The notes under the pieces are model-generated. The model was not told the DNA's origin. It saw only the letters and a program-made list of their open reading frames with translations, and did not search any database. 64,000 nt of DNA, from positions 124,001-188,000 of the forward strand of contig VIIQ02000842.1 of assembly GCA_007449985.2 (NCBI GenBank). Direction: 5' to 3'. Below are positions 334-36,579 of this stretch, one piece after another (within the stretch, counting starts at the first letter, position 1; every line of letters starts with the position of its first letter). This DNA comes from Desmodesmus armatus (Eukaryota > Chlorophyta > Chlorophyceae > Sphaeropleales > Scenedesmaceae). The position numbers were made by a program, and so were the translations under genes.

Positions 334-994
334 CCATCGCTGCCCTGGGGGCTGAGCCAGAGCCAGACCCTGCGCCTGAGGCAGGTGATGCAGCCCGCAG
401 CAGCAGGCAGGATGCACGTGTCAAGCATGAGGCCGCTGGCGTGAAGCGTGAGCGGGCGGCTGGCGTGAAGCGTGAGCAGGGTGCTGGTGATGAGGAGTAC
501 GTGCCCAGGAGTGCAACAGCAGCAGACCGCATTGACCTCACAGAGGAGGTGAGGGTGTCTCGACTGTCGGCAGCCCCAGGCTACAGTTGCCCAGTGTGTG
601 TGCATGCTTGGATCCTTCATGTTTATGCGTGCTTCACGTTTACGTGCTAGCCTTTGATCCGTCGTGGGTTTCTGGTGGTAGTGTTGTTAACCACAGAGAC
701 ACGGGCTGCCAGAATTTGCTGAGTGTCGTGTTTAGGGTCCTTGCACATGCGCAATCAAAGGATGATGCGGTCTATCATATGGGTGCATACTGGTGCACAT
801 AGCCTGTGCTGAGGTGGTCTCTGCTGCTGCTGCATTGTGCTGCTTTGTAGCCTGTGCGGCCGATGTGTGTCAACGGGCGCCAGGTTGCTCCTGATGAGCT
901 GGCCGTGTGTGACCTGTGTGACAGTGACGATGAGGGGGCAGCAGCGGCCAAGTGGCAGGTCAAGAAAAAGCAGCATGTCAAGGTGGAGCTGTGA
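334..994 (+). CDS. Copy A (3' end only) of tandem DUF7918-like / SUMO-motif gene family
   Basis: Two last exons, join(334..548, 851..994); the 5' exons lie left of the window. The exon at 334 follows a CAG acceptor in phase 1, and the 215-nt exon ends in phase 0 before gtgagg. The first exon is Ala/acid-rich and holds three psi-K-x-E motifs (VKHE, VKRE, VKRE), then D-E-E-Y-V-P-R-S-A-T-A-A and R-I-D-L-T-E-E. The last exon (48 codons including TGA) has M-C-V-N-G-R-Q, C-D-L-C-D-S-D-D-E and ends V-K-V-E-L, a fourth psi-K-x-E. K-x-E is the known SUMO-acceptor consensus and I-D-L-T with acidic flanks is a known SUMO-interacting motif; that these act so here is inference. Exon layout matches copies B, C and D exactly. 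No lesion is visible in this part. Confidence 0.7.
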
Positions 995-1480
995 GTTTGC
1001 AGTCATCATCTCGGCAGCTTGTAGTGTGGTTCAGCTGGGCTGTGCTCCTCCCCATTGATTGCCGGGGTAGGCCTTTGAACAGGCGTTGCAGCCATATTGC
1101 AGCTGGCAGTGGGTGGCTGTTCAGTCCAGATGCTGGACCAAGGCTGGTCAGGTCACTAGGGACTGCACAGTTTTGCTTGTGAGGGACTACACAGGCTGTC
1201 AGCAAGCGCTCGGGGTTGGCGCTGTGCCAATGCACCATTTGCAGGCTGTGTAGCAGTCATTGTGTTGTACAAGACTGTGTGATTGTGTTGGTGCACCACA
1301 CCCCACCAGTGGGTTAACCTTTCTAAGCAAGCCCAGCAGGAAGTGTTAGTGAATTTTCAAAGAGGCCCTTGCAACAGGTGAAAGAGTCCACAGCCACTCG
1401 TGCCACTCTTGTAGACAGCTGTACAGTATCTTCCCACTCCTTTGAACCCAGCTTGCTTACAGGTTCAAACCAATCTCGTT
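549..1480 (+). repeat. Segmental duplication partner of about 4704-5500 (gene tail and intergenic spacer)
   Basis: From the end of the SUMO-motif exon through the last exon and the downstream spacer, this stretch matches the region after fragment B' (about 4704-5500). Shared blocks include the text around 1020 and 5170, and the 'tgctcggggttggcgctgtg' block near 1207 and 5322. Identity looks moderate, with indels. Between 995 and 1824 I see no gene of its own; it should hold the 3' UTR of copy A and the promoter/5' UTR of copy B. Confidence 0.6.
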
Positions 1481-3630
1481 ACGATATGCAATGTGATGAC
1501 GTAGCTTGCAATGTCGGAACGCAGTTAGATAAGCTACTAAGGGAAGTGCATTTTATGAATGAATTTCCTGTTCCTGTCACCTCTTTCTTTGGCTACTGCT
1601 ACAGCTACTTTGGCTACTGCTACAGCAGATCTGGCCCAGGACTGTGAAGCCCAAGTCGCGTCACAAACCTTCAAAAATCCCACAATTTCGCTATTTGTCA
1701 CTTTTTGTTTGTCACTTGTTCAACACAACGTGAACTGCAGTTGTGCCAAGGTGTTGCAAGGGTGTTGAGCAGCAGCAGCAAACACTGCATTTCCACACGG
1801 AGCACCCTGACTGGATAGGCCTGTATGTCATCGAAAGGTGGCCATGCCAAGCAAGAGAACTTCACTGTGCGGCTGCAAACACCCACAGGCCAGTTGCTGC
1901 CTTCCGTCTAGTGGGATGGACACCGTTGCTTTGTGGGCGAGCCTGGCCAGGAGTTTGTTGTGGCCGTAATCAGATCCCTACGGTACCCTCACAAGGTGTA
2001 CAGGGTGAGTGTGCAAAGGATTCTGACTGCCTTTGACAGCAGCCAACTGCAGCTGCACTCATTGGGCCTCTCACCAACATCTGTTGTTGTCGCCGTGCGT
2101 TGCTGCCCTGCATGCTGCTTGCTGTTCATAGGCATCACTGCAGGTTGATGGGAAACGCGTTGGTTATCACCACTACATTGAAAAATCGGGGAAGCCAAGT
2201 GTGTTTCAAGGCTGGCTGGCATCAGGTACATCCCTCATGTGGCAGACATTACGCTGGACGCAGCCACCAGCGCTGTGACTTGCAGTTGCAAACAGAACTG
2301 CGCGTCACATCAGATGGCTAAACCCCTTACGCCTTGAAACCGCACACCTTCTCACTGTTTGATAGCAGCTTGTCCAATGCATTGTTCAGGCATTCCAATT
2401 ACAGGTCAGTGGAGGAGCCATGGTCCCTTGTGCAACACGACAGGGATGCCTTTCCTGCCTTGCCTCCTGAATGTGCAGGCACCTCAAGCAAGGTATCATA
2501 CAGGCGCTTCAAGTTTTCCAGCTGCCAGCCCAGCACTGCGGCAGCCACTGTTGCCAGTGCAGATCAGCTGGCAGCAGGGCGGATACAGCTAGACCTACAG
2601 GAGGTAGTGGTGACAAGCCACAAGACACCCGGCTTCAGTTATAGTGCAGTGCCACTCAGCGGGGGAGACAAGAGGCTGCCTGAAGGCAAGAAATGGTTCA
2701 TGGCCCCTGGCCTGAAGGTAGGCATGGCCATACCCTACTGCTGCTTGCCAATGCCGCAGTGTGCCTGTCAGACCTTATGCCCGTGCCTGTACTCTGTACG
2801 GTACTGTAGGTGCATTGTTGCAGACAGCACATTGCAAGGCTGTCCACCAGCAGATCCCCTGGGCTGGTGCAGTTATCACATGATGTTTTAGTTGTTACAA
2901 ATTCGCACCTCACTAGGGAATGACACCCAAATGGTGCTTGCAGCAATGTAGCACCTGCCAAAGTGCCACATGCGCAAGCTGGCCTTTCCCTGACAGCTCA
3001 TACCTGTGCCTACTTGACACATCCAATGCCACTTTTGCAGGCAGAAGCTGGCTCACATGTAACAGGGACTGGTTTTTGCCAAAGAGAAACTGAGGAGGTG
3101 GGGCTGCAGCTGAAGGGGTGACTACCCACTTGATAAGTGTCTGGCTGGCATGTTGCACCTGTATTTGAATGTGTGCATGGCTTGCTTGGCTGCATTTGCC
3201 TGCTTGCTACCCTGACAGCTTTTGCTGATGTTTTCAGTGCTGCTATGCAGCACAAAATGCTTATGGCCTTCTCATTCTGTGTTTTTTGGGTGATGGACAA
3301 GTGTTCACATGTGTGAAGCATGGCGGCTGTAATGGCAATGTGTGGTGCACTTGTGCAGGTCTGCTCCCTGCCCAGCCTGCATGTGCGCTACGACTCCTCT
3401 GAGGCGCTGTACCTGCGCAAGGCCCTCAACCCAAGGTTCGCACCACACAGGGCCATCCTGCGCAAGTCAGCAAACCCAGGTGAGCAGCCAGGCGCAATCA
3501 GCTTCTAGGCCATGGTTTGTGATGAATGCGCACCGGCAGGAACCCTGAGAGTCTTGCTGAATTGTGCATCCCCTTGCCGGTCAGTGCTAGTGCCTTTTGG
3601 TGGCCACCACTACTGTAGCGGGGTGGCCTT

Positions 3631-3631
<1 letters not shown>

Positions 3632-3660
<29 letters not shown>
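3632..3660 (+). repeat. (CAG)9 microsatellite in intron 5 of copy B
   Basis: Nine CAG units in a row inside the intron before the SUMO-motif exon. No coding role is seen. Confidence 0.95.
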
Positions 3661-3661
<1 letters not shown>

Positions 3662-4080
3662 GGCCTGGTGTTGATCAAGCAGGCGCAATGTGTTTTCGCT
3701 GTTGCGGCGTGTGTTTCATACAGCCATCGCGGCTCTGGGTGCCGAGCCAGCCAATGCAAGCAGTGGAGGTGCGGCAGCAGCAGCAGCAGCGGGTGGGGGT
3801 GTCAAGCATGAGGCCGTTGGCGTGAAGCGTGAGCGGGCGGCTGGCGGGTCAGGTGGTGATGATGATGACTACGTGCCCAGGAGTGCCACTGCAGCTGGTC
3901 GCATCGACCTCACAGAGGAGGTGAGAGGCTGGCTGATGCGCATACTTGTGGGGTGCTGTTCTTGGGTGTACGCCTCACGCCATGCGACAAGTAATGCGTG
4001 AGTCTGCAAGGTGTGCTTCATCAATATGGCAGATGCACCTGCCATCATGTGCCAACCACGAGCTTTTGCATGCATGCATC

Positions 4081-4124
4081 AGTACTGCCTACGGCAGGGG
4101 CATCAGTACTGCCTACGGCAGGGG
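4081..4124 (+). repeat. 24-bp tandem duplication in the last intron of copy B
   Basis: The unit agtactgcctacggcagggg plus catc occurs at 4081-4104, and its first 20 bases recur at 4105-4124. Copy C has a single diverged version at the same intron position (around 8325), so the duplication is specific to copy B. Confidence 0.9.
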
Positions 4125-4597
4125 CTAATGAGTGGGTGTATGGCTTCTGCTGCTGCTGATGCGGTGTGCTGCTTCGCAGCCTGTGCAGCCAATGTGTGTT
4201 AACGGGCGCCAGCTGGCCCCTGATGAACTGGCCGTGTGTGACCTGTGTGACAGCGATGAGGAGGGAGCAGCAGCACCCAAGTGGCAGGTCAAGAAAAAGC
4301 AGCATGTCAGTGTGGACCTGTAGCATGACCTCTGTCATCAACAATTTTGGCTCCAGTATGTATGTCAACCCATGGTTTGTCGGTTTGGTTACTCCTCTGT
4401 GAAGCAGTGTTGTTGTCAGTGACCGGACAACGACTGCCTCTTGAGGCGGCCGTTGTTTACCGTTGTACAGAAGGTCACGTTGACTGTGTACATCAATGTG
4501 TTTGTAGGCTGTATGATGACAGCCTGCCAAGGCATATGTTCTTATTTTGTCAGTGACGCGCATGGTGGCCCTCATGCAATTGAGCATGTTGTATCTG

Positions 4598-5169
4598 TTG
4601 GCGTGAAGCATATGAGCAGGGGGCTGGCGGGTCAGCTGTTGGTGATGAGGAGTATGTGCCCAGGAGCGCCACTGCAGCCAACCCCATTGACCTCACAGAG
4701 GAGGTGAGGGTGTTCTTGACTGTCAGCAGCCCTTGGCTACTGCTGCCCAGTGTGCATGCATGCTGGGATGTTTCATGTGTGTGCTTGCTTGATGTGGAGG
4801 CCGTCAATCAGTGGTGGGTGTAATGGGGTGGTAGTGGCGCAAAATAGCAGGGGCATGAGCTACCGAAATATGCCGATCACGCACTTGCACCTGCACAACA
4901 AGGGTAAGGTGCAACATATATCCAGGGGTAGATTCTGCCAGAACCAGTGGTGCACATAGCCTGTGCTGAGGTGGTCCCTGCTGCTGCTACGCTGTGCTGA
5001 TTTGCAGCCTGTGCTGCCAATGTGTGTCAACGGGCGCCAGTTTGCTCCTGATGAGCTGGCTGTGTGTGACTTGTGTGACAGTGACGAGGAGGGGGCAGCA
5101 GCACCTAAGTGGCAGGTCAAGAAGAAGCAGATGTCAAGGTGGAGCTCTGACTTTGCAGTCATCATCTAG
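4598..5169 (+). pseudogene. Fragment B': broken tail of the SUMO-motif gene family
   Basis: Contains only the 3' part of the SUMO-motif exon (about 4598-4703, still ending in the I-D-L-T-E-E codons before gtgagg) and a complete-looking last exon from 5008. The upstream exons and most psi-K-x-E units are missing. The first fragment is out of frame and its VKHE codon context is altered to V-K-H-M. The last exon has lost one base near 5132 relative to copy A, so the V-K-V-E-L ending is replaced by a frameshifted tail reading to a TAG at 5167-5169. Together with the flanking spacer it duplicates the copy A tail, which suggests unequal crossing-over in the array. Confidence 0.7.
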
Positions 5170-5858
5170 GCAGCTTGTGGTGTGGTTCAGCTTGGCTGTG
5201 CCTTGAACAGGCGTCACAGCCATGCAGCTTGCAGTGTGTGGCTGTCCAATTGAGATATTGGGTCGGGGCTGGTCAGATCACTGCACAGTCTTGTGCGTGA
5301 TGTGCACAGGCTGTCAGCATGTGCTCGGGGTTGGCGCTGTGCCAATGCACTCTTTGCAACAATCAGTCGCGGGCGGACTTTGCTGAAACACGGCTACCAG
5401 GAAGTGTCAGTGGAATGTTCAGGAGGACCCTTCACCTTTGAATTGAATCCAGAGTACGCCTGTCAAGTCATGCCGCCCATGTAGTCATCTACATGTTTTG
5501 TTCATGTTCATGTGCAGCAGACAGGTTCAAACCACTTTCGATGTCACTGTTGGTTTCAATGCGACGACGTGGCTTCCACTGTCGAGTCATGCAACTTGAT
5601 CCACGCAGATGAGGCTTTTGCTAAACGCGTCTCCTGCTCATGTTAGTCTACTGATCATCTACTGATCTTCCTGGCCCAGTGAAGCCTCAGTCTCGTCGCA
5701 CACGTCCCAACAATCGCACAGTCGTGCTTTCTGTCGCTTGTTACTGGTTTTCATCCAACGTGATCCACGTGAAGTGAAGTTGTGCCCAAGGTTGACCAGC
5801 AGCAGCAGCAAGACACTGCCTTGCAGCGCTCTGCAGCACCCTGCCTAGATAGGCCTGT
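5170..5858. other. Spacer upstream of copy C
   Basis: No gene of its own. Its first part matches the spacer after copy A, and the last about 100 bases before the ATG match the leader of copy B (shared agcagcagcagcaaacactgc-like and ggcctgtatgtcatcg blocks). It is expected to contain the promoter and 5' UTR of copy C. Confidence 0.5.
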
Positions 5859-8361
5859 ATGTCATCGCAAGGTGGCCAGGACAGTCAAGAGAAGTTCATC
5901 GTGCAGCTGCAGACACCCACAGGCCAGGTGCTGCCTTCCATACAGTGGGATGGCCACCGTTGCTTTGTGGGCGAGCCGGGCCAGGAGTTTGTTGTAACCG
6001 TGACAAGATCCCTCCGATACCCGCACAAGGTGTACAGGGTGAGTGTTGAATCGATGCTTATGGGCTTCAGCAGCAGCCAACTTCCAGCTGCACACCTCTG
6101 GCCTCACCAACGTGTGTTACTGTTGCCCTACATCGCTGCCCTGCATGCCAATTGCCAGGCATCACTGCAGGTTGATGGGAAACGCGTTGGTTATCGCTAT
6201 TACATTGAGGATGATTGGGAACCATTGGTGTTCAAAGGCTGGTTGGAATCAGGTACACTTTTCAAGAGACAGGCATGACGACGCACATGGCCAGCGGAGA
6301 TGTGACTTGCAGTTGCCAACAGTATTGCATCTGTTCGTGGTCACATCATATGGCTAACCCTCACATGCCTTGCACCAGCACACCCACTTACTGCATGACA
6401 ACAAAACACATGTCCCATGCAGTGGGCCAGGCATCTCAATGACAGGTCAGTGCAGGCTTACTGCATGACTTCTTTGTTCAACACAGGAGGGGTGTCTTTC
6501 CTGCATACTCTTTTTGTATTTCAGGCACCTCAGGCGGGGTGTCCTACAGGCACTTCAAACTTGCCAGCTGCCAACCCAGCAGCGCTGCAGCCACTGTTGC
6601 CAGCGCAGATCAGCTGGCAGAAGGACGCGTACAGCTGCACCTGCAGGAGGTTGTGGTGACAGACAAAAAGAAACCCAGCTCCAACAGAAAACGCAGTGCA
6701 TTGCCATGCAGCCAGGCAGACCAGAGGCTGCCTGAAGGCAAGAAATGGTTCATGGCCCCTGGCCTGAAGGTAGGCAGGGTTTACGGGTTCAGGTTTCGGC
6801 CATACCCTTAGTATCGCCAGCCAGTGCTGCCTTGTGCCTTGAAACCATGTGGCCCCTGGCCTCAAGGTAGGCAATGCCATACCCTTACTACCGCCTGCCA
6901 GTGCTGCAGCGTACATTTGAATCCACAGTTGACCTGACACAGGCAGCTGCCGCCAGGGCCGCCAGCAACAGTTGTTTTGATCCTTTGCCCCTCACAAGGG
7001 ATCGGCACCTTACCATTGGCTTGCAGCACCACTGGACCTGCGTACAAGTGCCAGCCTAAATTTCTTATTTGAAAGAGTCAGATCTTGACAGCACATGCAT
7101 GTGCCTTCTTGTCACATCCAATGTGCGTACGGCCTTTTACTTTTGCAGGCAGAGGCTGGCTCACATGCAACAGGGACTGGTTGGGCCAAGAGGGAGTTTC
7201 AGGAGGTGGGGCTGCAGCTGTAGGGGTGACTGCCTGCCTGATAAGTTGTGGGCCATAGATCTGAAGCCAACGGCTGGCTCAATGGTAATTGGACGTTCGC
7301 ATGGCTTGCTGGATGGCGTGTGCCTGCTAGTACTACTAGCAGGGTAGTACCCTGCTTGTACCTTTGACAGTTTGGCTTACCTTTCCGTGTGGCGCTATGT
7401 TGCTCATCATGCCTGATAGCCTGCTTACTCTATGTCCTGCCGGTTATGGACAAGTCCCATGTTTGAAAAATTGAAAAATTGCGGCTGTCCTGGCAATGTG
7501 CGGTATGTTCCTGCAGGTTGCCAGCCTGCCCAGCGTGCATGTGCGCTACGACTCCTCTGAAGCGCTGTACCTGCGCAAGGCCCTCGACCCCAGCCTCCCA
7601 CCACACAGGGCCATCCTGCGCAAGTCAGCAAACCCAGGTGGGGGGCACCCTTTGGATTGATGACATAGATGCCTGCTGTAAACACGCCCTTGCCAAGTGA
7701 CCTGGAGTCAGCTCAGCGTGTGCAGCGCATGGTGTGTGGGGACGGTTTCAGCTGTGTGCTTATGCCTGCGCTTATGCCTGTGGCAGCAGCAATGCCGTCC
7801 CAGCTGCTGCAGCAGGGCCCCTGTTGAGGCTAAACAAAATCCAAGCCAGCTGAGGCTCAGGTGCCTCCGCTGTTTGTATTGTCTGCATGTGCAGCCATCG
7901 CAGCTCTGGGTGCTGAGCCAGCAGATGCAAGCAGTGGAGCCGGGGCAGCAGCAGCAGCAGCAGGTGGGGGTCATGTCAAGCATGAGGACGCTGGTGTGAA
8001 GCATGAAGCCGCTGGTGTCAAGCCTGAGGCTGCAGGCGTCAAGCATGAGGTCGCTGGCATGAAGCATGAGGCTGCAGGCGTGAAGCGAGAGCTGGGGGCT
8101 GGTGATGATGAGTATGTGCCCAGGAGTGCGACTGCAGCCAACCGCATTGACCTCACAGAGGAGGTGAGGGGCTGGCTAATGTGCATGCTTGTGGGGTGCC
8201 TTTCTTTGGTGTATTTCATGGCACCATGCACAAAGTAATGCGTGTGATTGCAAGGTGTGCTTCAGCAACAAGGCGGATGCACCTGCTATTGTGTGCCAAT
8301 CACGAGCTTATGCATGCATGGATCAGTAGTACCCAAAGCAGGGGCTAATGAGTGGGTTCCT

Positions 8362-8431
<70 letters not shown>

Positions 8432-8587
8432 TTATTGCTGCAGCCTGTGCAGCCAATATGTGTGAATGGACGCCAGCTTGCGCGTGATGAGCTGGCTGTG
8501 TGTGACTTGTGTGACAGCGACGAAGATGACGCAGCAGCACCTAAGTGGCAGGTCCACAAAAAGCAGCACATTAGTGTTGACGTCTAG
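5859..8587 (+). CDS. Copy C: intact DUF7918-like protein with six psi-K-x-E motifs and a SIM-like motif
   Basis: Seven exons, join(5859..6038, 6159..6252, 6525..6769, 7149..7205, 7517..7637, 7895..8163, 8444..8587), total 1110 nt, 369 aa. All introns are GT-AG and the phases close. Residues 1 to about 230 form a beta-rich domain: L-Q-T-P-T-G-Q-V-L-P-S, F-V-G-E-P-G-Q-E-F-V-V-T-V, a V-D-G turn, V-F-K-G-W, F-K-L-A-S-C, G-K-K-W-F-M-A-P-G-L-K, then V-R-Y-D-S-S-E-A-L. This order resembles the DUF7918 domain (family of unknown function), judged by eye. Exon 6 is A/G-rich and holds VKHE, VKHE, VKPE, VKHE, MKHE, VKRE in 7-residue steps, then R-I-D-L-T-E-E. The last exon has C-V-N-G-R-Q, C-D-L-C-D-S-D-E-D and ends in TAG. 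No signal peptide or membrane segment is seen, so a nuclear or cytosolic place is likely. A heavily SUMOylated scaffold is inferred; no enzyme motif is visible. Confidence 0.8.
8364..8429 (+). repeat. (CTG)22 at the end of the last intron of copy C
   Basis: Twenty-two uninterrupted CTG units end 14 bases before the CAG acceptor at 8441-8443, so the array occupies the branch-point and polypyrimidine zone. Other copies have only two to five CTG units at this place. Confidence 0.97.
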
Positions 8588-9662
8588 CATGACACCTCAA
8601 GAATGAAGCTGTGTGTCAATTGTTGGTATTTTTCATTTTGTTGTCAGTAAAATATGTGGCCATGTATAGTCAGGGTAGGTGTGCGGCCCTTCTCCTGTGT
8701 TTCAGAGGCTTTGTGATGCCAACACTATCAGTCTGGTTGTGCTGACGCGCATTGCAACCATCCTGTACATGTATATGAGACTTCCGGTGTTTTGTACATG
8801 ACTGAAAGTGTGCAGAGTGGATTTTTGGCACGTCGCAGCACTTTCTAATACAGCACAGCGGGGATGCATATGCGAGATAAAATGTGCAGCTGTTTTGTTC
8901 ATACATGCTTATTGCATTGTGTGTTTGGCTGTCACGTTTGTCGGTGTATCCGGCATCACGTCTCTGATATGTCCAGCCTTGCTGCCCGCAACACCTGCCA
9001 GTGGGTAGCACCTGTGCCATAACTGCGACCACTGCGAGAAGGTATGCGAGCAGACGCCTATGTGTGTGCAGAGAGAGTTGGTGCTAAGAAGTAGTCTGGG
9101 CATTCTACTCTATCAGCGTGCATAGGGAGGGGGGTGCAAATGCAGCAGTGCACACAGGGCACTCCCCCCCCTTGTAACCTTGGAGACACAGGCAGCACAT
9201 ATGTGCTGTACAGCATGCATGCGGTACAGTGTACTGAAGTCAAGTGCATCACGGGTAGGTCTTTCGTGAGAAGGCCAAGCAGCTGATACAAGGCACTGCA
9301 AAATATCTTGCCGGTTCGACAGCAGACGAGAGGGGAGCATTTGCAGCTGTGCGGCAAACCCTTGTTTGAAACCATTCATATCAGTTGTAACAGTTTTGAA
9401 ATCTTGCGTCCATGATGTGATTGAACGCGCCACTTGGGAAAGGCCGCATGCTTTTGCAGCATCTTTGGAAAGTCGCTCTCCATCTGCTGTCCAACACAAC
9501 GCCTGAGTGGTCAGGGATCCGTTGTGAAGGTCACAGACTCCAGCCACCAACAGACCCGCAAGAGTAACTTACATACTTGTTTATACTTTCAAAAACATCC
9601 TTGCATTTGCACGAAGGTGTCGGCAGCAGCAGCAGGAGGTACCCCCTCCAACAGCAGACAGG
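8588..9662. other. Spacer between copies C and D
   Basis: No convincing gene. A minus-strand frame stays open from 9550 to 9113 (145 codons), with a fairly ordinary amino-acid mix for its first 80 codons, but I recognise no domain and see no supporting splice structure. The stretch differs from the spacers before copies B and C, so copy D is an older duplicate. Confidence 0.4.
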
Positions 9663-12323
9663 ATGGCCAAGGGGCAGGACTTCTTCGGAGTGCAACTGCA
9701 GACACCCACAGGCCAGGTGCTGCCCTCCATAGAGTACGATGGGCAGCGCTATTATGTGGGCGAGCCGGGCCAGGAGTTTGTTGTTGCTGTGACAAGGTCT
9801 GTGCGGTACCCCAAGAAACTGTACAAAGTGAGTCAAAATTTTGGTGTGCATTGAGCAGCTTGACAGCAACCAGACAGCTCCAATATCATGTGCAAGACCT
9901 CATGTGGCTTTGTATCTTGCATCCTGGTTACAGGCACTCTTGCTGGTTGATGGGCAGAGCGCTAATTCGTGTTTTCACCTGAGTAGTGGAGCGCCCCACG
10001 TGTTTCAAGGCTGGTTGACATCATGTAAGTGGCCACATGTGACACTTACGTCACTTACCCTGAGTGCGCACAGCAAGGGGAGCAATCTGCAGTTGCAGAC
10101 AGTCACCACATGCCAACCGCCTCCTCACCCTTCATGCATCCGTGACAGTGCTTGTAACACCACTGAACAACACCAGAACGTGTCCCATCCATGGCATCTG
10201 GGGTTGCCATGTATCGGCCTATATGAAACTGCCATTGCTGACGTCAAAAACTGACTTTCTTATGTGCAGCCACCCCAGATGGTATGACCTACAACCGCTT
10301 CAAGTTTGCCAGCTGTCAGCCCAGCACGGCTGCAGCCACTGTGAGGAGTACAGACGACTTGGCAGCAGGGCGGATACAGGTGAAGTTGTCAGAGGTGGTA
10401 GAGACAGGCCAGAAGGTGTTCAAGCCATGGTATGGATCAGCACCACGCTCAGAGGCAGACAAAAGGCTTCCTGAAGGCAAGAAGTGGTTCATGGCTCCTG
10501 GCCTCAAGGTATGTCTGGCTGAAACATTGAAATATGTGATGCTTTGCAGCGTGCCTAGCAGTCTTGATGCTGCAGGTGCAAGGTGGTATGTTGTGCAAGC
10601 AGCAACTCGAGCGTCCCTTTCACGCCGACAGGATATTGGTTGGCCAGCTGGTCTGAACCTCTCACTGCAGATAGCTGGGCATGTCCTTGCATGAGTAAGC
10701 AGCCACCCCTAGGTGGGCTGGGCTGTCAGCTATGCGCGCTGCACCTTACCAGCAAGCATTGACATGTGTGCGCAGGAGCACGCCACAGGTTTCAAGCGAG
10801 TGTGGGTCGCACCTATGGGGGCACTTCCCGTTATGCAGCTTGTGTCTGCACTCAACTGAACCCCAGGTCAAATGCACTGGCACATGCTGGGCTGCATCAT
10901 CCTGCCACACTTACAAAGTGAATGTAGATGGTTGTCTGTATGATGCTGTCAACGTCCTCTCCTGCTGCAGGCAGAAGCTGGTTCAAGCACAAAAGGGGCC
11001 GCGGTGGCTCACGCATAGTTCGGGAGGTGGGCCCACACCTGCAGGATACTTGACTGCCCACCTGCCTGGCAGGATGACTTTGCAACAGACTGTGGGCTTC
11101 CTCTTGTCTTCCATCCGGACAGTTCTGGGGCACAGTCAGCACCAGCTGTCACACTTGTCACTGGGTTGTTGCAACAGCATACCAGCTTGCACTTTGGAAG
11201 CTGGCACTAGTGTTCACGCATGGCCCTGCACGTGCTTGAACAGACTGTGTGCCTCTTTCCTTATGCTGCACACCTAGCCTGTTGCCCTTGCAAGGGGGCA
11301 AACGCACAGGGCCACTAGTCTGTCATCCATACGCAAGCTCGTGCTTTATGGCGGTGTGTGCGGTATGGTGTGCAGGTTGCCAGCTTGCCCAGCATGCATG
11401 TGCGCTACGACTCCTCTGAGGCGCTGTACCTGCGCAAGGCCCTCAACCCAAGGTTCGCACCACACAGGGCCATCCTGCGCAAGTCAGCAAACCCAGGTGC
11501 GAGCACTGCTGTGTTCTTGTTTTGGGTTACCAGTGACTGCTGGGTTGGGCTTTCATGCCATGAATACGTCTCGGCATGACAACTGCATGTACCTGCTGAG
11601 GTGTGCAGTACCTTGCCGTACCTGCCTGTGCTAGTGCCTGCAGATGGCCTTTCAAGCAGGCACTGTGTGTGTGAATTTGCGTTTGCTGTGTGTGATTCAT
11701 GCAGCCATTGCGGCTCTAGGTGCTGAGCCAGCCAGTGCAGGCGGGGCAGCAGCAGCAGCAGCCGGTGGGGGTCGTGTCAAGCGTGAGGCCGTTGGCGTGA
11801 AGCGTGAGCGGGGGGCTGGCGGATCAGCTGGTGGTGATGAGGAGTATGTGCCCAGGAGCGCCACTGCAGCCAACCGCATCGACCTCACAGAGGAGGTGAG
11901 GGGCTGTTCATTTGGCTGCAGCCTGTTGTTGGTACTATTGCCGTTTGGTGTGTGCATGCTTGTGTGTTGCTGGTGCACATTAATAAGACAGCTTCAACCA
12001 AGGCGGCTTTGTCTGCAAGACGTGCTCACGGTTTCAAACAGCCGGCGCAGCAGCTATCGGTAAGTGCTGACACAATCGCGGCATTGCACATACATGGCCT
12101 GCATGCTGCAAGGGGCGGCACAAAGGTGTGCACCTGTTCAAACGGGTTCCTGTGCTGCTGCTGCGTTATGTTGCTGCAGCCTGTGCTGCCAATGTGTGTC
12201 AACGGGCGCCAGGTTGCTCCTGATGAGCTGGCCGTGTGTGATTTGTGTGACAGTGACGAGGAGGGGGCAGCAGCACCTAAGTGGCAGGTCCAGAAAAAGC
12301 AGCACGTGACTGTCGACCTATGA
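9663..12323 (+). CDS. Copy D: diverged DUF7918-like / SUMO-motif protein
   Basis: Clear exons are 9663..9827, 9934..10024, 10270..10508, 11376..11496, 11705..11895 and 12180..12323. Start M-A-K-G-Q-D-F-F-G-V-Q-L-Q; the first exon is five codons shorter than in B and C. The fourth exon is a problem: the homologous block 10971..11026 is 56 nt instead of 57 and reads a stop in the expected phase. If a 13-nt micro-exon 10776..10788 (E-H-A-T-G) is added, the block reads R-S-W-F-K-H-K-R-G-R-G-G and all phases close at 1020 nt, 339 aa; E-H-A-T-G echoes S-H-A-T-G of copy C. Two psi-K-x-E motifs (VKRE, VKRE), then R-I-D-L-T-E-E, then the C-D-L-C-D-S-D-E-E tail, ending H-V-T-V-D-L and TGA. Function as for copy C. 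If the micro-exon is not used, the copy is broken. Confidence 0.65.
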
Positions 12324-32321: not shown

Positions 32322-35300
32322 TCAATCATCAGGCTCGCTGAAGGGCATTTTGACATTGGCAGTCATCAGTGGTGTGCCCGCCTGCTCTGCTCCCACCACC
32401 ACAACCTTGACAGCACCTGCCCCCAACTCCGGCTGTGTGCAGGTCACATCAGCCTGCATGTGAAGCGGCAGCGGGGTAGCGGGCAAGCATCAGGCACATA
32501 CAACGTGTGTGTACTTTGGGGGGGGGCAGAGTTTCAAGGCAGATGTTGCTGCATGCGGCCAAAGCTTTAAGGCAACCCCACTGACTCAGGGCCATCCTCA
32601 GGGCCTGTTTGTGATGCATCTGCCTGCACACAATCGTGGCAAGGTGCACCCTTGACCCCCCCCCCCCCAAAAGCTGCATCATTGAGACATGGCCCAGCTG
32701 CATAGCACGGCGCACCTTGAAGGTGTACTGCAGGAGTGGCACCAGGCAGGGCACCATGAAGTGTGGTGTGTGCACCTTGTACATGTCTGGGTCAGCAGGC
32801 TGCACCAGCACCTGCAAACACGCGCACACCCCACAGCAATGCGGCACACATGCAACCATCACACAGGCAGTGATGTGGCTACATCATGTAGCTGCATGTG
32901 TGTGATTATGATAATCACACACATTGCCATGCAGTCCGCTCATGAGCGATCAGGCACCACAGTCATTGTTTTGGTCGTTGTCAAGCACCACCCTCCCTTG
33001 AGCCCAACTGCACTTCCTTCCCTGAACGTCATCGGCTGGCAGCCACAGCGTCCAAAAGCTAGCTTGTGTTTGGGAGTGTGCCACACCCCTACTGCCTGCC
33101 TGGTGCCAGCTGACGTCCATGTTCAGTCGGAGAAGTTGCACGACGCGCACCTGCAGGTTTGTGGCCAAGTCTTGCCCTTCATTGGCAAGGTTGATGAGCA
33201 ACCTGAAGCGTGGACCCAGGCCTTGGATGTTGACGCTCATGCTCAGGCTGGCTGCAGCAGCATGGGTCCCCTGCACAAACACATCACACCCAGCATGTTG
33301 CGACGCAAGAAGCATTGCCAACTCTGATCTTGCTTGCACACAAAGTGGACAATAGGAATGTGCACAGACTCGGATCCTGCATTGAAGGAGGGGGTCTGGA
33401 CGTCTGCTTCAAGCAAGCTGCTCTGACTGCACCAGGGCAGTCCTGGAGTGCAGCCCTGCTCACTGCTGCTGTGTCGTGGATGTGCTCGGCAGTTACAGCC
33501 AAGTGCACTGCATCAGCACGACAGCCCACCTGTCCGTCTGTCAGCACTTTGACGAGAGCCCTGGCAGTCTCCAGCCGCATCTTGACCAGGTCCCGCTGGA
33601 AAACCCTAGGTGTCAAAGAATGGGCAGCAGCAGGCGGAGCCCACCGCACACATTGTGATAAGTCTGTCTGAAGTGCTGTGTTGACACTTATTGCAAGGCC
33701 ATGTGTTGTAAGAGGAAAAGTAGCACAGCCGGCATGTGAGGGTTGGGTGTGAGTGACAGTCAGCTACGATTGTGGATGATGCGGTGCTGGGGACACTAAC
33801 AATCATTGTCATCACACCAAGCACCCAAAAGAAGCCGCCCTAAGAGTGGTCCCAGCCCAATGTCGTACCTGTGCATGTCAACGGCGTGTTCCCGCTCCCG
33901 CTGCGTCTGCTCCACGTACAGCCGCGTCTTCTTGGGCACATCCAGGGGCACGTCTTGCTCTGGTGGTGGTCCTGAGCCCCCCGCGGCGGCAACCTCCAGG
34001 CTTGCTGTGCGGGGCAGAATCTGCATATACGACACATGCGCAGTTTATTTGCAACCACTGAGCAGTATGCCAGGCAGCCTCACTGTCAACATACACACTT
34101 AAGGAAAGACTGTGCCCCGCGTGCTAGTGTTTGTGGTGCAGAATTGCCGAGTGGGTCACTCCCTGATGTATTGAAGGTGTTACGTCGCTGCCAGTCTGTT
34201 CGAACACTGCGACAGAGTGTGTACAGGACACAAGTGCCTTGACAATTGACGAGTTGTCACCACATCCTGCCACGCAAAATGACTCGTGAGCGCACCTGTG
34301 TCGCTGACAAGCTGGTGCACTCTGCGGCTATGGCTGTGGTGCTAGCAGTGTGCCAGCATACCCTGTGTGCCGTCCCCCAGCCCACCTTGATGTCCAGGCC
34401 CCCTGCTTCCGTCACATTGACCAGTGAGTTGTCCTCGCGTGCATAGCGGCCCACGAACAACCCGCTCACAGGGCTGCTGCTGGTGTGCTCTGAGACCAGT
34501 GTCTTATCATTGTACACTCTGAGGACGCCGTTTGACAGGGCCACCACCACACACTTTGTGTTGCGCGTGGAGTTGGGTGTCAGCAGCTGCATGGCGCGTA
34601 TGCTGGCAGGCATGTACAGGGAGTACTGCTTGGAGCCTGCCACAGAGTAGCAGTGTACTGCGTCAGCCATGGTGCCCACAATGATCTGCCTGGTGGTGGT
34701 CACCTGCGGCATGCAGCACGGGCACCGTGGCAGCCACCAGCCATGAAGTGTGAAACGTGTGACTGTAATACAGACCTGTCAGCCACGGCATGGCTGCACA
34801 GCAGTCCCGCAGCGCTGCTGTACTGCACTGTACTGTCACGTACATGTGATTGTTCACAAGCTGCATCAGCCAGTGCCTTGGCAGCTACACCTTTTACAGA
34901 CATGCGTGTTATGCATGCATGCAGCTTTTGGGTGCCGCCTACATGTACCCACCAGGGTGACGGGCTGTGAATCCAGCTGTATGACTGTCTTCGCCAGCAC
35001 CCCTCCCTTCACGCTGTACAGCCAGCCATCACGTGCTGCCACAGTGACTCTGTAGCCTGCATCCAGGCCGCCGGCTGTGGATATTAGTGCTGGCACTGCG
35101 GGCAGGGTTAGGCTGCTGCTGACAGAAGTGGCGCCAGGACCTAGCAGCAGGACGCGCTTGTCCTCTGTGCCAACCACCAGCTGGCCAACACCGTCTGGCT
35201 GCAGGAGCAGCATAGCGGCAACGGAGATGTGGCAGAGTCAGCAACAGCAGCAGCGGAAGGGACATAGACACGTTGTTGTCAATGACAAGGGTGCGCATGC

Positions 35301-36579
35301 CTCCATGACACCAAGTTTCGATGATGACTTTGGCACCTACAAGAGAGTCTGTTGTGTGGCACTGACATGGCTAGTGCAGGAAGAGTGGTGGCCAACAAGG
35401 AGAGGCTTGTCATGGTGCTTGGCTGCTCGCATGGTGAGATGGTTCACAAGTAGCACAGGTGTACCCGTTGCCGCTGGCTGTGGTGCCGCATGCAGCATAC
35501 GTGCGTCACTGTTGCTCCTGACCTCATCTGCTGTCTGCCGTATGACCCCCATGCAGGTGATGTATGACAGGTGGGCGCTGCTGGGTCCGTCACTGGTTGC
35601 TGCATATGACTGCTGCTCCGAGGGTCTGCCAGCGACAGCAGCTGCATGGAGCTGGTGCTCAGCTGTAGGCCTGCTGCCTGCAGCTGCTCCAGCTTGCCTG
35701 CACCTGCCTGTGCTGAGCACTGCCCTGCCTGCATGGCCTGCCTGCACACAGGACAAACAGTGACCCACAAGTCCATCATGATCGAAATGGAAGTGACTGA
35801 TGCATAACAAATGTCCCTCCAGCATAAGCAAAACTGCTGCCAGCACACAGTGTTCTTTGACATTCTGTTTTGACCCTGCTCGCTCTGGTGTGAAAGATGC
35901 AGCAACATACCATGGCTGCGCACCAACCAAACTATATGCCGATTTGCATGCAGCACTTGCACGGCTGAGGGCAAGCTGGAACACTCCAGCTGCTGAAGGG
36001 CCAGCTTTTGTATGCAATTTGCGTAGCTCACCAGATGGCCTGCTCATCTGACTGGCCATCTGCTGCTGGCAGGGTGAACTTGTAGAAGGGCCGCAGATTT
36101 TGGAACATGTAGATGTGCGATCCAGCAGCCACTGCTACTGTGGGCAGGCGCGACCCCTGGCTGTCCAGCAGCAAGGCACATACTGCCACTGGGACATCCT
36201 GCAGCTCCACCTCTGAAGCTTTCTGAGTGCCCTTCCACACCTGTACACATTCCACAGCGGCCAGCAGCACTAGTGCAGTGAAGTTTGGCATGTCGTGCCA
36301 CAAGCCGTACAGAGGTGTGCCCCAGCAGCCAAGCAGCGCAGAAGAGGGGTGACACACCTTGAGCTTCTTGTCAGCATCAGCAACGACAAGCCGCCAGTCC
36401 CCATCACCACATAGGTTGCACGTGGTGATGCAACTGCTGAAAGCTTTGACGCCCGCAACTGGGTCTGCCCATGCATCCAGCCACAGCTGCTTCACTGGCT
36501 CCCGTGCATGCCCCGACTTGCTGCTACGAGTGAGGCGTGGCCTTGCTGGCTCCAGCTCCACCGTAGTCCTGTTCGGCAT
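32322..36579 (-). CDS. BBS1: BBS1, subunit of the BBSome ciliary trafficking coat
   Basis: Complement of join(32322..32453, 32716..32811, 33151..33270, 33530..33605, 33869..34020, 34386..34703, 34953..35198, 35523..35724, 36032..36240, 36358..36579), 1773 nt, 590 aa, close to the 593 aa of human BBS1. Recognisable along the whole length: [79 protein letters not shown] and the end A-N-V-K-M-P-F-S-E. These form the seven-bladed beta-propeller (N-terminal two thirds) and the C-terminal ear-like part. BBS1 binds ARL6/BBS3-GTP and helps move membrane proteins out of cilia. Exon 35523..35724 is uncertain: a second frame starting at 35741 also resembles BBS1 for 40 residues. Divergent from the Kir-type channel at 37394. 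Confidence 0.95.

Follow-up and report, generated by a model that had tools for sequence, protein, structure and literature searches.

We analyzed a 64,000-nucleotide stretch of the green alga Desmodesmus armatus (C792:124001-188000, hereafter the window) within its 115.8-Mb assembly of 831 contigs. At its start lies a tandem gene family on the plus strand, whose members follow one another in the order Z, A, B, fragment B', C and D. The proteins begin with a domain of roughly 230 residues and end in a tail encoded by two exons. The first of these, here called the tail exon, carries an array of motifs of the SUMO-acceptor type, psi-K-x-E, followed by an acidic stretch, the sequence PRSATA and RIDLTEE, and the last exon carries a second motif, AVCDL followed by acidic and serine residues. 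An earlier reading made from the sequence alone had the family start at position 334; that position belongs to the tail exon of copy A, the earlier exons of which lie before the window.

The number of acceptor motifs differs between tail exons: six are found in copy C, three in copy A and two each in copies B, D and Z, two to three being the norm and a long array occurring in copy C only. The sequence-only reading described steps of about seven residues, and the spacing is indeed mostly 21 nt (7 residues) in A, B, C, D and Z. It also placed the array, an acidic linker and RIDLTEE in one exon of every copy, which describes Z, A, B, C and D but not B', whose array has slipped out of frame and now reads VKHM. 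The order it gave is correct; the array does not, however, directly adjoin what follows, as the PRSATA linker intervenes and the last acceptor motif lies 22–27 residues from the DLT core (start to start) in the copies of this genome. Across the ten tails measured, the gap between this motif and the first core is anywhere from 13 to 32 residues, in line with a flexible linker. In most copies the acceptor motif nearest the putative SUMO-interacting motif (SIM) is followed by acidic residues. In an open-frame scan of both strands over 109 kb (1,836 frames with a minimum length of 40 residues, 146,391 residues in all), five frames have two psi-K-x-E motifs within 40 residues. In these five a DLT-type core follows downstream, and they are exclusively the tail exons of copies Z, A, B, C and D.

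Two homology searches, each scoring only the 8,000 candidates with the most shared words, yielded 15 homologous proteins. Those with a name come from Tetradesmus obliquus (P0001, P0003), Scenedesmus (P0004), Raphidocelis (P0002) and Monoraphidium (P0008); a eukprot alga contributes P0007, with two units, and the other nine are short or intron-reading predictions, apparently metagenomic. The tail region is visible in 10 of the 15, four of them fragments from other collections, and all ten have the layout; in P0005, P0006, P0009, P0010 and P0013, which are either fragments or intron-reading models, this region is not visible. Among viral contigs, 78 pattern matches gave no confirmed case. The sequence-only reading had stated that homologues keeping the repeats but losing the K and E positions would speak against it. 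In Tetradesmus, Scenedesmus, Raphidocelis and Monoraphidium the opposite is seen: the linker K and E are conserved across genera, and the spacer, its length and the x residue vary.

The linker was analyzed in 15 sequences (Z, A, C, D, nine homologues and the two P0007 units, with B and B' excluded); in four fragments that lack the domain, up to 90 residues ahead of the core were counted as linker. Every one of the 15 linkers contains a strict motif, and 14 contain two or more. Shuffling residues within each linker gave an expectation of 0.009–0.087 motifs, against the 1–6 observed, with P at or below 3.5e-4 in 14 of the 15 sequences and 0.009 in P0003. Furthermore, 36 of 38 linker lysines lie inside psi-K-x-E, as compared with 5 of 147 lysines in the domain (11 sequences covering it), although sequences from one genome are related and these lysines are not independent events. 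The two linker lysines outside the motif are in TKQE of P0003 and just ahead of VKRE in P0008. The psi position is occupied by V (33), M (2) or L (1) and the x position by R (21), H (8), P (4), Q (1), D (1) or W (1). Such a pattern, with K and E fixed and x free, is as expected for UBC9 recognition. At the nucleotide level, the K codon is AAG in all 15 units of the five copies of this genome (B included), and in these units changes at E are synonymous only, while changes at x alter the amino acid.

According to the accessible part of a 2025 review (PMC12751080), a SIM core typically has at least three hydrophobic residues out of four, prefers Cys alongside Val, Leu and Ile, and is flanked by acidic or phosphorylatable residues. 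RIDLT alone would thus be a weak SIM, because only two of its four core residues are hydrophobic. In relatives the first core reads TVDLT, YLDLT, FVDLT, TINLA or TINLV. A loose pattern matches the AVCDL motif of the next exon, followed by D, S or E, in all 10 complete tails, a stricter SIM pattern matches it in 8 of them, and the gap between the two SIM-like motifs is 24–25 residues in all 10. By sequence, it is a better SIM candidate than RIDLT because its Val/Cys/Leu core and acidic/Ser flank fit the published description: at least three hydrophobic residues next to an acidic/Ser stretch are present with V-C-D-L and absent from RIDLT alone. The C-terminus (HVDVDL, HISVDV, AIELAV, AVELTEGDA and others) may be a third, weaker SIM. 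The combination of acceptor sites with a SIM-type motif, as first noticed, holds across genera; RIDLT is the weaker SIM, and the better one (AVCDLCDSDDE) had gone unmentioned.

The gene models are listed in Table 1; exon borders of C, B and Z were set from splice sites and alignment to copy D. With the borders chosen, Z, A and C can be read through without interruption, and copy C is open both with and without a cassette exon. The C-terminal HVKVEL of copy A provides one extra psi-K-x-E (VKVE). In copy B, codon 29 is an in-frame TAG stop, and this copy is for that reason probably a pseudogene, unless translation begins at a later start. Fragment B' retains NPIDLTEE and AVCDLCDSDEE, and the frame of its last exon breaks close to the end. 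In copy D the cassette counterpart (window 10970-11025) measures 56 nt as opposed to 57, which shifts the downstream frame; since it is one base short, copy D is open only when the cassette is skipped. The homologues P0001, P0003 and P0004 have the cassette segment in frame; copy D may accordingly either be damaged or leave this exon out. A genome search with copy D gave 32 matches, of which 29 are exon-sized and within the cluster (weakest E 4.5e-4) and three lie outside it (best E 0.02).

Table 1 Coordinates of the gene family and of the BBS1-like exons (window positions unless a contig is given)
Feature	Position	Strand	Content
Copy Z	C792:118065-120775	+	outside window, upstream; array VKRE, VKRE
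Copy A, earlier exons	C792:121932-123998	+	before window start
Copy A, tail exon	334..548	+	3 psi-K-x-E (VKHE, VKRE, VKRE), acidic linker, RIDLTEE; array including RIDLTEE 420-548
Copy A, last exon	851..994	+	AVCDLCDSDDE (second SIM-like motif), basic KKK, C-terminal HVKVEL
Copy B	1825..4323	+	exons 1825-2004, 2132-2225, 2479-2717, (cassette 3041-3097), 3359-3479, 3724-3920, 4180-4323
Copy B, tail exon	3724..3920	+	VKHE, VKRE, RIDLTEE; array including RIDLTEE 3801-3920
Fragment B'	about 4602..5150 (approximate limits)	+	decayed last two exons of a copy
Copy C	5859..8587	+	exons 5859-6038, 6159-6252, 6525-6769, (cassette 7149-7205), 7517-7637, 7895-8163, 8444-8587
Copy C, tail exon	7895..8163	+	six psi-K-x-E at 21-nt steps (7975-8091; VKHE, VKHE, VKPE, VKHE, MKHE, VKRE), then linker ending GAGDDEYVPRSATAANRIDLTEE; array including RIDLTEE 7975-8163
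Copy C, last exon	8444..8587	+	SIM-like motif AVCDLCDSDEDD, C-terminal HISVDV
Copy D	9663..12323	+	exons 9663-9827, 9934-10024, 10270-10508, 11376-11496, 11705-11895, 12180-12323
Copy D, tail exon	11705..11895	+	VKRE, VKRE, RIDLTEE; array including RIDLTEE 11776-11895
Copy D, last exon	12180..12323	+	AVCDLCDSDEE, C-terminal HVTVDL
BBS1-like gene exons	35007..36483	-	sole BBS1 place found in this genome, same contig

The introns hold features of their own. The last intron of copy C contains 22 CTG units near the splice acceptor (window 8364-8429), and the CTG runs at the same place in copies B and D are short only. The intron 3' of the tail exon is common to copies B (3980-4162) and C (8224-8382), at 83% over 122 nt and 84% over 61 nt, and this shared sequence next to the tail exon points to a recent duplication or conversion between the two. 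An Rfam scan of the window gave no match.

The domain upstream of the tail had been called uncharacterized. It is related to a Pfam family that has a name, the likewise uncharacterized DUF7918 (PF25534; seen in this analysis in fungi and a few algae). Pfam finds no family above cut-off and no DUF7918 match in copies A, Z, C and D (copy D has one chance match, Birna_VP4, E 0.67); P0002, however, matches DUF7918 at 27.5 bits with a cut-off of 27, and P0001 (26.0 bits) and P0003 (17.1 bits) score below it. A profile comparison by hhalign of the algal family (A1) with 47 fungal-type DUF7918 proteins (A3) gave 183 collinear columns at E 3.4e-4 and a probability of 37.6%. From these sequence comparisons we regard the domain as DUF7918-related rather than as a proven member. 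A PF25534 search of this genome gave no match, but control genomes gave none either. NCBIfam returned no match for P0002 and, for P0001, only exonuclease-type families, all below their cut-offs. A sequence search of the PDB gave a best E of 1.4 for copy D and no match for profile A1. MAL/MKL1 proteins bear RPEL motifs, and positions 193-257 of the fungal profile have four weak PDB matches to MAL/MKL1 chains (E 0.22-0.37), a likeness that may be due to chance. In the literature searched, from which subscription journals are mostly absent, neither DUF7918 nor PF25534 is mentioned.

The tail is not a general DUF7918 trait. A single query sequence matched 177 fungal-type proteins at E ≤0.001, and 120 of the 177 were examined, a sample of the fungal-type branch matched by this query. 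The DUF7918 label is carried by 114 of these 120, and those with a species name are fungi. Their tails have a median length of 122 residues; two are under 40, and one protein lacks the anchor motif. Two or more psi-K-x-E motifs follow the domain in 2 of the 120, a DLT-type core is found in 3, and none of the 120 has two acceptor motifs together with such a core. Additionally, a broad SIM is present in none of these fungal-type tails, as opposed to 8 of 10 algal ones.

The neighbors of the family recur in other algae. The gene immediately upstream of copy Z (L007:831-2440, exons joined by hand) codes for an exonuclease of the RNase_T type that also has a GRF zinc finger, and Tetradesmus P0001 has an RNase_T exonuclease and a DUF7918 unit in one predicted protein. 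The two may be truly fused there, or a gene model may have joined the same neighboring genes. Similarly, the predicted protein that holds both P0007 units also includes a BBS1 Pfam domain, and the sole BBS1 place found in this genome lies downstream of the family on the same contig (window 35007-36483). Because RNase_T and BBS1 recur beside DUF7918 units in P0001 and P0007, gene order suggests that the locus is old and kept between genera.

The genome also contains genes of the SUMO pathway. Two SUMO genes on contig C59, first picked up through two weak hits (E 0.585 and 0.819) and then read exon by exon, have last exons ending in QQVGGC (L049) and EQVGGCCC (L048), that is, in Gly-Gly with a short extension. 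Exons on contig C1 resemble UBC9/SCE1 (71% identity over residues 36-76), and 16 matches to C48 (ULP-like) proteases score above cut-off, some of them perhaps from mobile elements. In Chlamydomonas, SUMO conjugates rise under heat, as reported in the part of the source available to us (PMC11371177). A further set of SUMO-like (Rad60-SLD) genes is expanded, with four in tandem on C560 (L035, C560:349001-359000), one on C208 (L044) and one on C637 (L047). In five of the six, Gly-Cys-stop takes the place of a terminal Gly-Gly, and all six have a poly-Q tract ahead of the domain, in five following a KRxR motif. Searches with Arabidopsis SUMO1 rank the C560 genes first; these were rejected as the main SUMO, because three of the four have a Gly-Cys ending. 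To judge by this ending, such proteins may not be conjugatable.

We consider it probable that the family encodes SUMO-regulated hubs with an acceptor-plus-SIM tail, in which the domain would be switched or recruited by SUMO. The linker, which is probably disordered, is poor in lysine apart from two to six psi-K-x-E sites, and is followed by a minimal SIM core (IDLT, VDLT or LDLT; INL in two relatives) and, 24–25 residues on, by the fuller AVCDL SIM. In the mechanism we propose, the SIMs would bring SUMO-charged UBC9 to the adjacent lysines, the protein would become multi-SUMOylated, and the attached SUMO together with the SIMs would connect it to SUMO-modified or SIM-bearing partners, the DUF7918-related domain thereby being switched or recruited. 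The layout, its conservation across genera, the confinement of linker lysines to the motif and the presence of SUMO pathway genes are observed and speak for this proposal; SUMO conjugation, SUMO binding, disorder, nuclear location and any scaffold role are what we infer.

Several observations weigh against it. RIDLT in the copies of this genome has two hydrophobic residues in its four-residue core; P0003 and P0004 fail the stricter SIM test and have INLA or INLV instead of DLT; and P0003 has one strict acceptor motif plus TKQE. The last exon is not lysine-poor, with KKK outside any motif in several copies. Single psi-K-x-E motifs are common, given that 27 of the 120 fungal tails have at least one. 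Only Z, A and C are clean copies, B being a probable pseudogene and D open to doubt. Finally, for an SP-RING E3 ligase the genome gave one match of 28.5 bits, below cut-off, and a prokaryotic control matched too.

Each half of the tail could also be read without SUMO. The AVCDLxDSDDE and DLT motifs might bind a non-SUMO partner, for example a transcription or chromatin factor, leaving the acceptor half alone SUMO-related. SIMs are loose motifs, RIDLT has just two core hydrophobics, and the flanks PRSAT and VNGRxVAxDE are conserved beyond what a SIM needs; on the other hand, the Val/Cys/Leu core with its acidic/Ser stretch fits the SIM description in the accessible review text (PMC12751080), and the motif co-occurs with SUMO-acceptor motifs in all 10 complete tails, so we hold this reading to be doubtful, though worth keeping in view. 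The array, for its part, could serve mainly as a nuclear localization signal (NLS) in which E and V are incidental. K-R-E-R fits the loose NLS pattern K-K/R-X-K/R and is found in 11 of the 15 sequences, and a second basic cluster, KKK, lies near the C-terminus in several copies. Yet KRER accounts for only 11 of the 36 motif copies, the forms VKHE, VKPE, VKWE, VKDE, LKQE and VKREL do not fit, and Z, C and both P0007 units lack it altogether; moreover, the residue before K is V, M or L in 36 of 38 cases, and E is retained although an acidic residue should not help nuclear import. As a main function an NLS is accordingly quite improbable, but it may be a partial role alongside SUMO. We regard it as very improbable that the array is a functionless low-complexity linker produced by 21-nt slippage. 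Copy C was clearly enlarged by duplication of a 21-nt unit, and alanine and glycine runs flank the array, but K and E are conserved between genera while spacer, length and x change, the 15 units of this genome show no change at K and only synonymous change at E, and AVCDL, the most conserved motif of the tail, sits in a separate, repeat-free exon.

Other alternatives accept SUMO and differ in its consequence. Multi-SUMOylation could recruit a SUMO-targeted ubiquitin ligase (STUbL), so that the tail would act as a SUMO-primed degron governing turnover and not assembly. Near-exclusive SUMO-type lysines in the linker are expected if ubiquitin is excluded until SUMO is attached, and multi-SUMO proteins are RNF4 clients, as in the available text on multi-SUMOylated ETV4; a client, however, needs no SIMs of its own, and the last exon holds more lysines, which leads us to think this unlikely. 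At the other extreme, the Sphaeropleales DUF7918-related branch could be a dedicated SUMO hub, a scaffold for SUMO–SUMO assembly with an acceptor chain, tandem SIMs and other linker lysines cleared, whose partners may include Gly-Cys-ending SUMO-like proteins acting only without conjugation. This larger proposal also seems to us improbable. For the SUMO-regulated hub that we favor, a condensate scaffold is just one possible outcome, and a SUMO-primed degron or a simple domain switch would leave the same sequence. A scaffold is conceivable because poly-SUMO with poly-SIM can form droplets and PML has both features, according to the accessible portion of PMC8616421. The sequence-only reading had suggested a protein carrying and binding several SUMO chains, for instance a condensate or nuclear-body scaffold, which we would treat as possibilities; by Pfam, copies A, Z, C and D contain no known oligomerization domain.

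Proteins with both SUMO-acceptor sites and SIMs are already known; in this domain and lineage none turned up in the literature searched, nor did any study of SUMO substrates in these algae. As in PML, where SUMOylation and a SIM with an acidic/Ser stretch occur in one protein (PMC8616421, in the part available), the two are joined here, with motifs recognized from sequence; unlike PML, copies A, Z, C and D have no RING/B-box/coiled-coil (TRIM/RBCC) domain by Pfam, and both domain and lineage are different. GCNA, Spartan and Wss1 similarly carry SIMs in a fast-changing, repeat-bearing disordered region, comparable to the probably disordered linker here, and Chlamydomonas has GCNA. In contrast to our family, the repeats of mouse GCNA are acidic, GCNA (human, not mouse), Spartan and Wss1 have a protease domain, and the accessible text does not mention an acceptor array (PMC5098910). 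With STUbLs such as RNF4, described in the accessible part of PMC12751080, the family shares more than one SIM-like motif at short spacing; it differs in that Pfam finds no RING in A, Z, C and D and that acceptor-type sites are also present. The SP-RING (zf-MIZ) domain of SUMO E3 ligases likewise has no Pfam match in these four copies.

The SUMO pathway would thus be the first testable pathway link for the uncharacterized DUF7918-related domain family. Furthermore, the locus offers a natural series of two to six acceptor sites in otherwise similar proteins, which would be useful for examining how SUMO number affects assembly or turnover.

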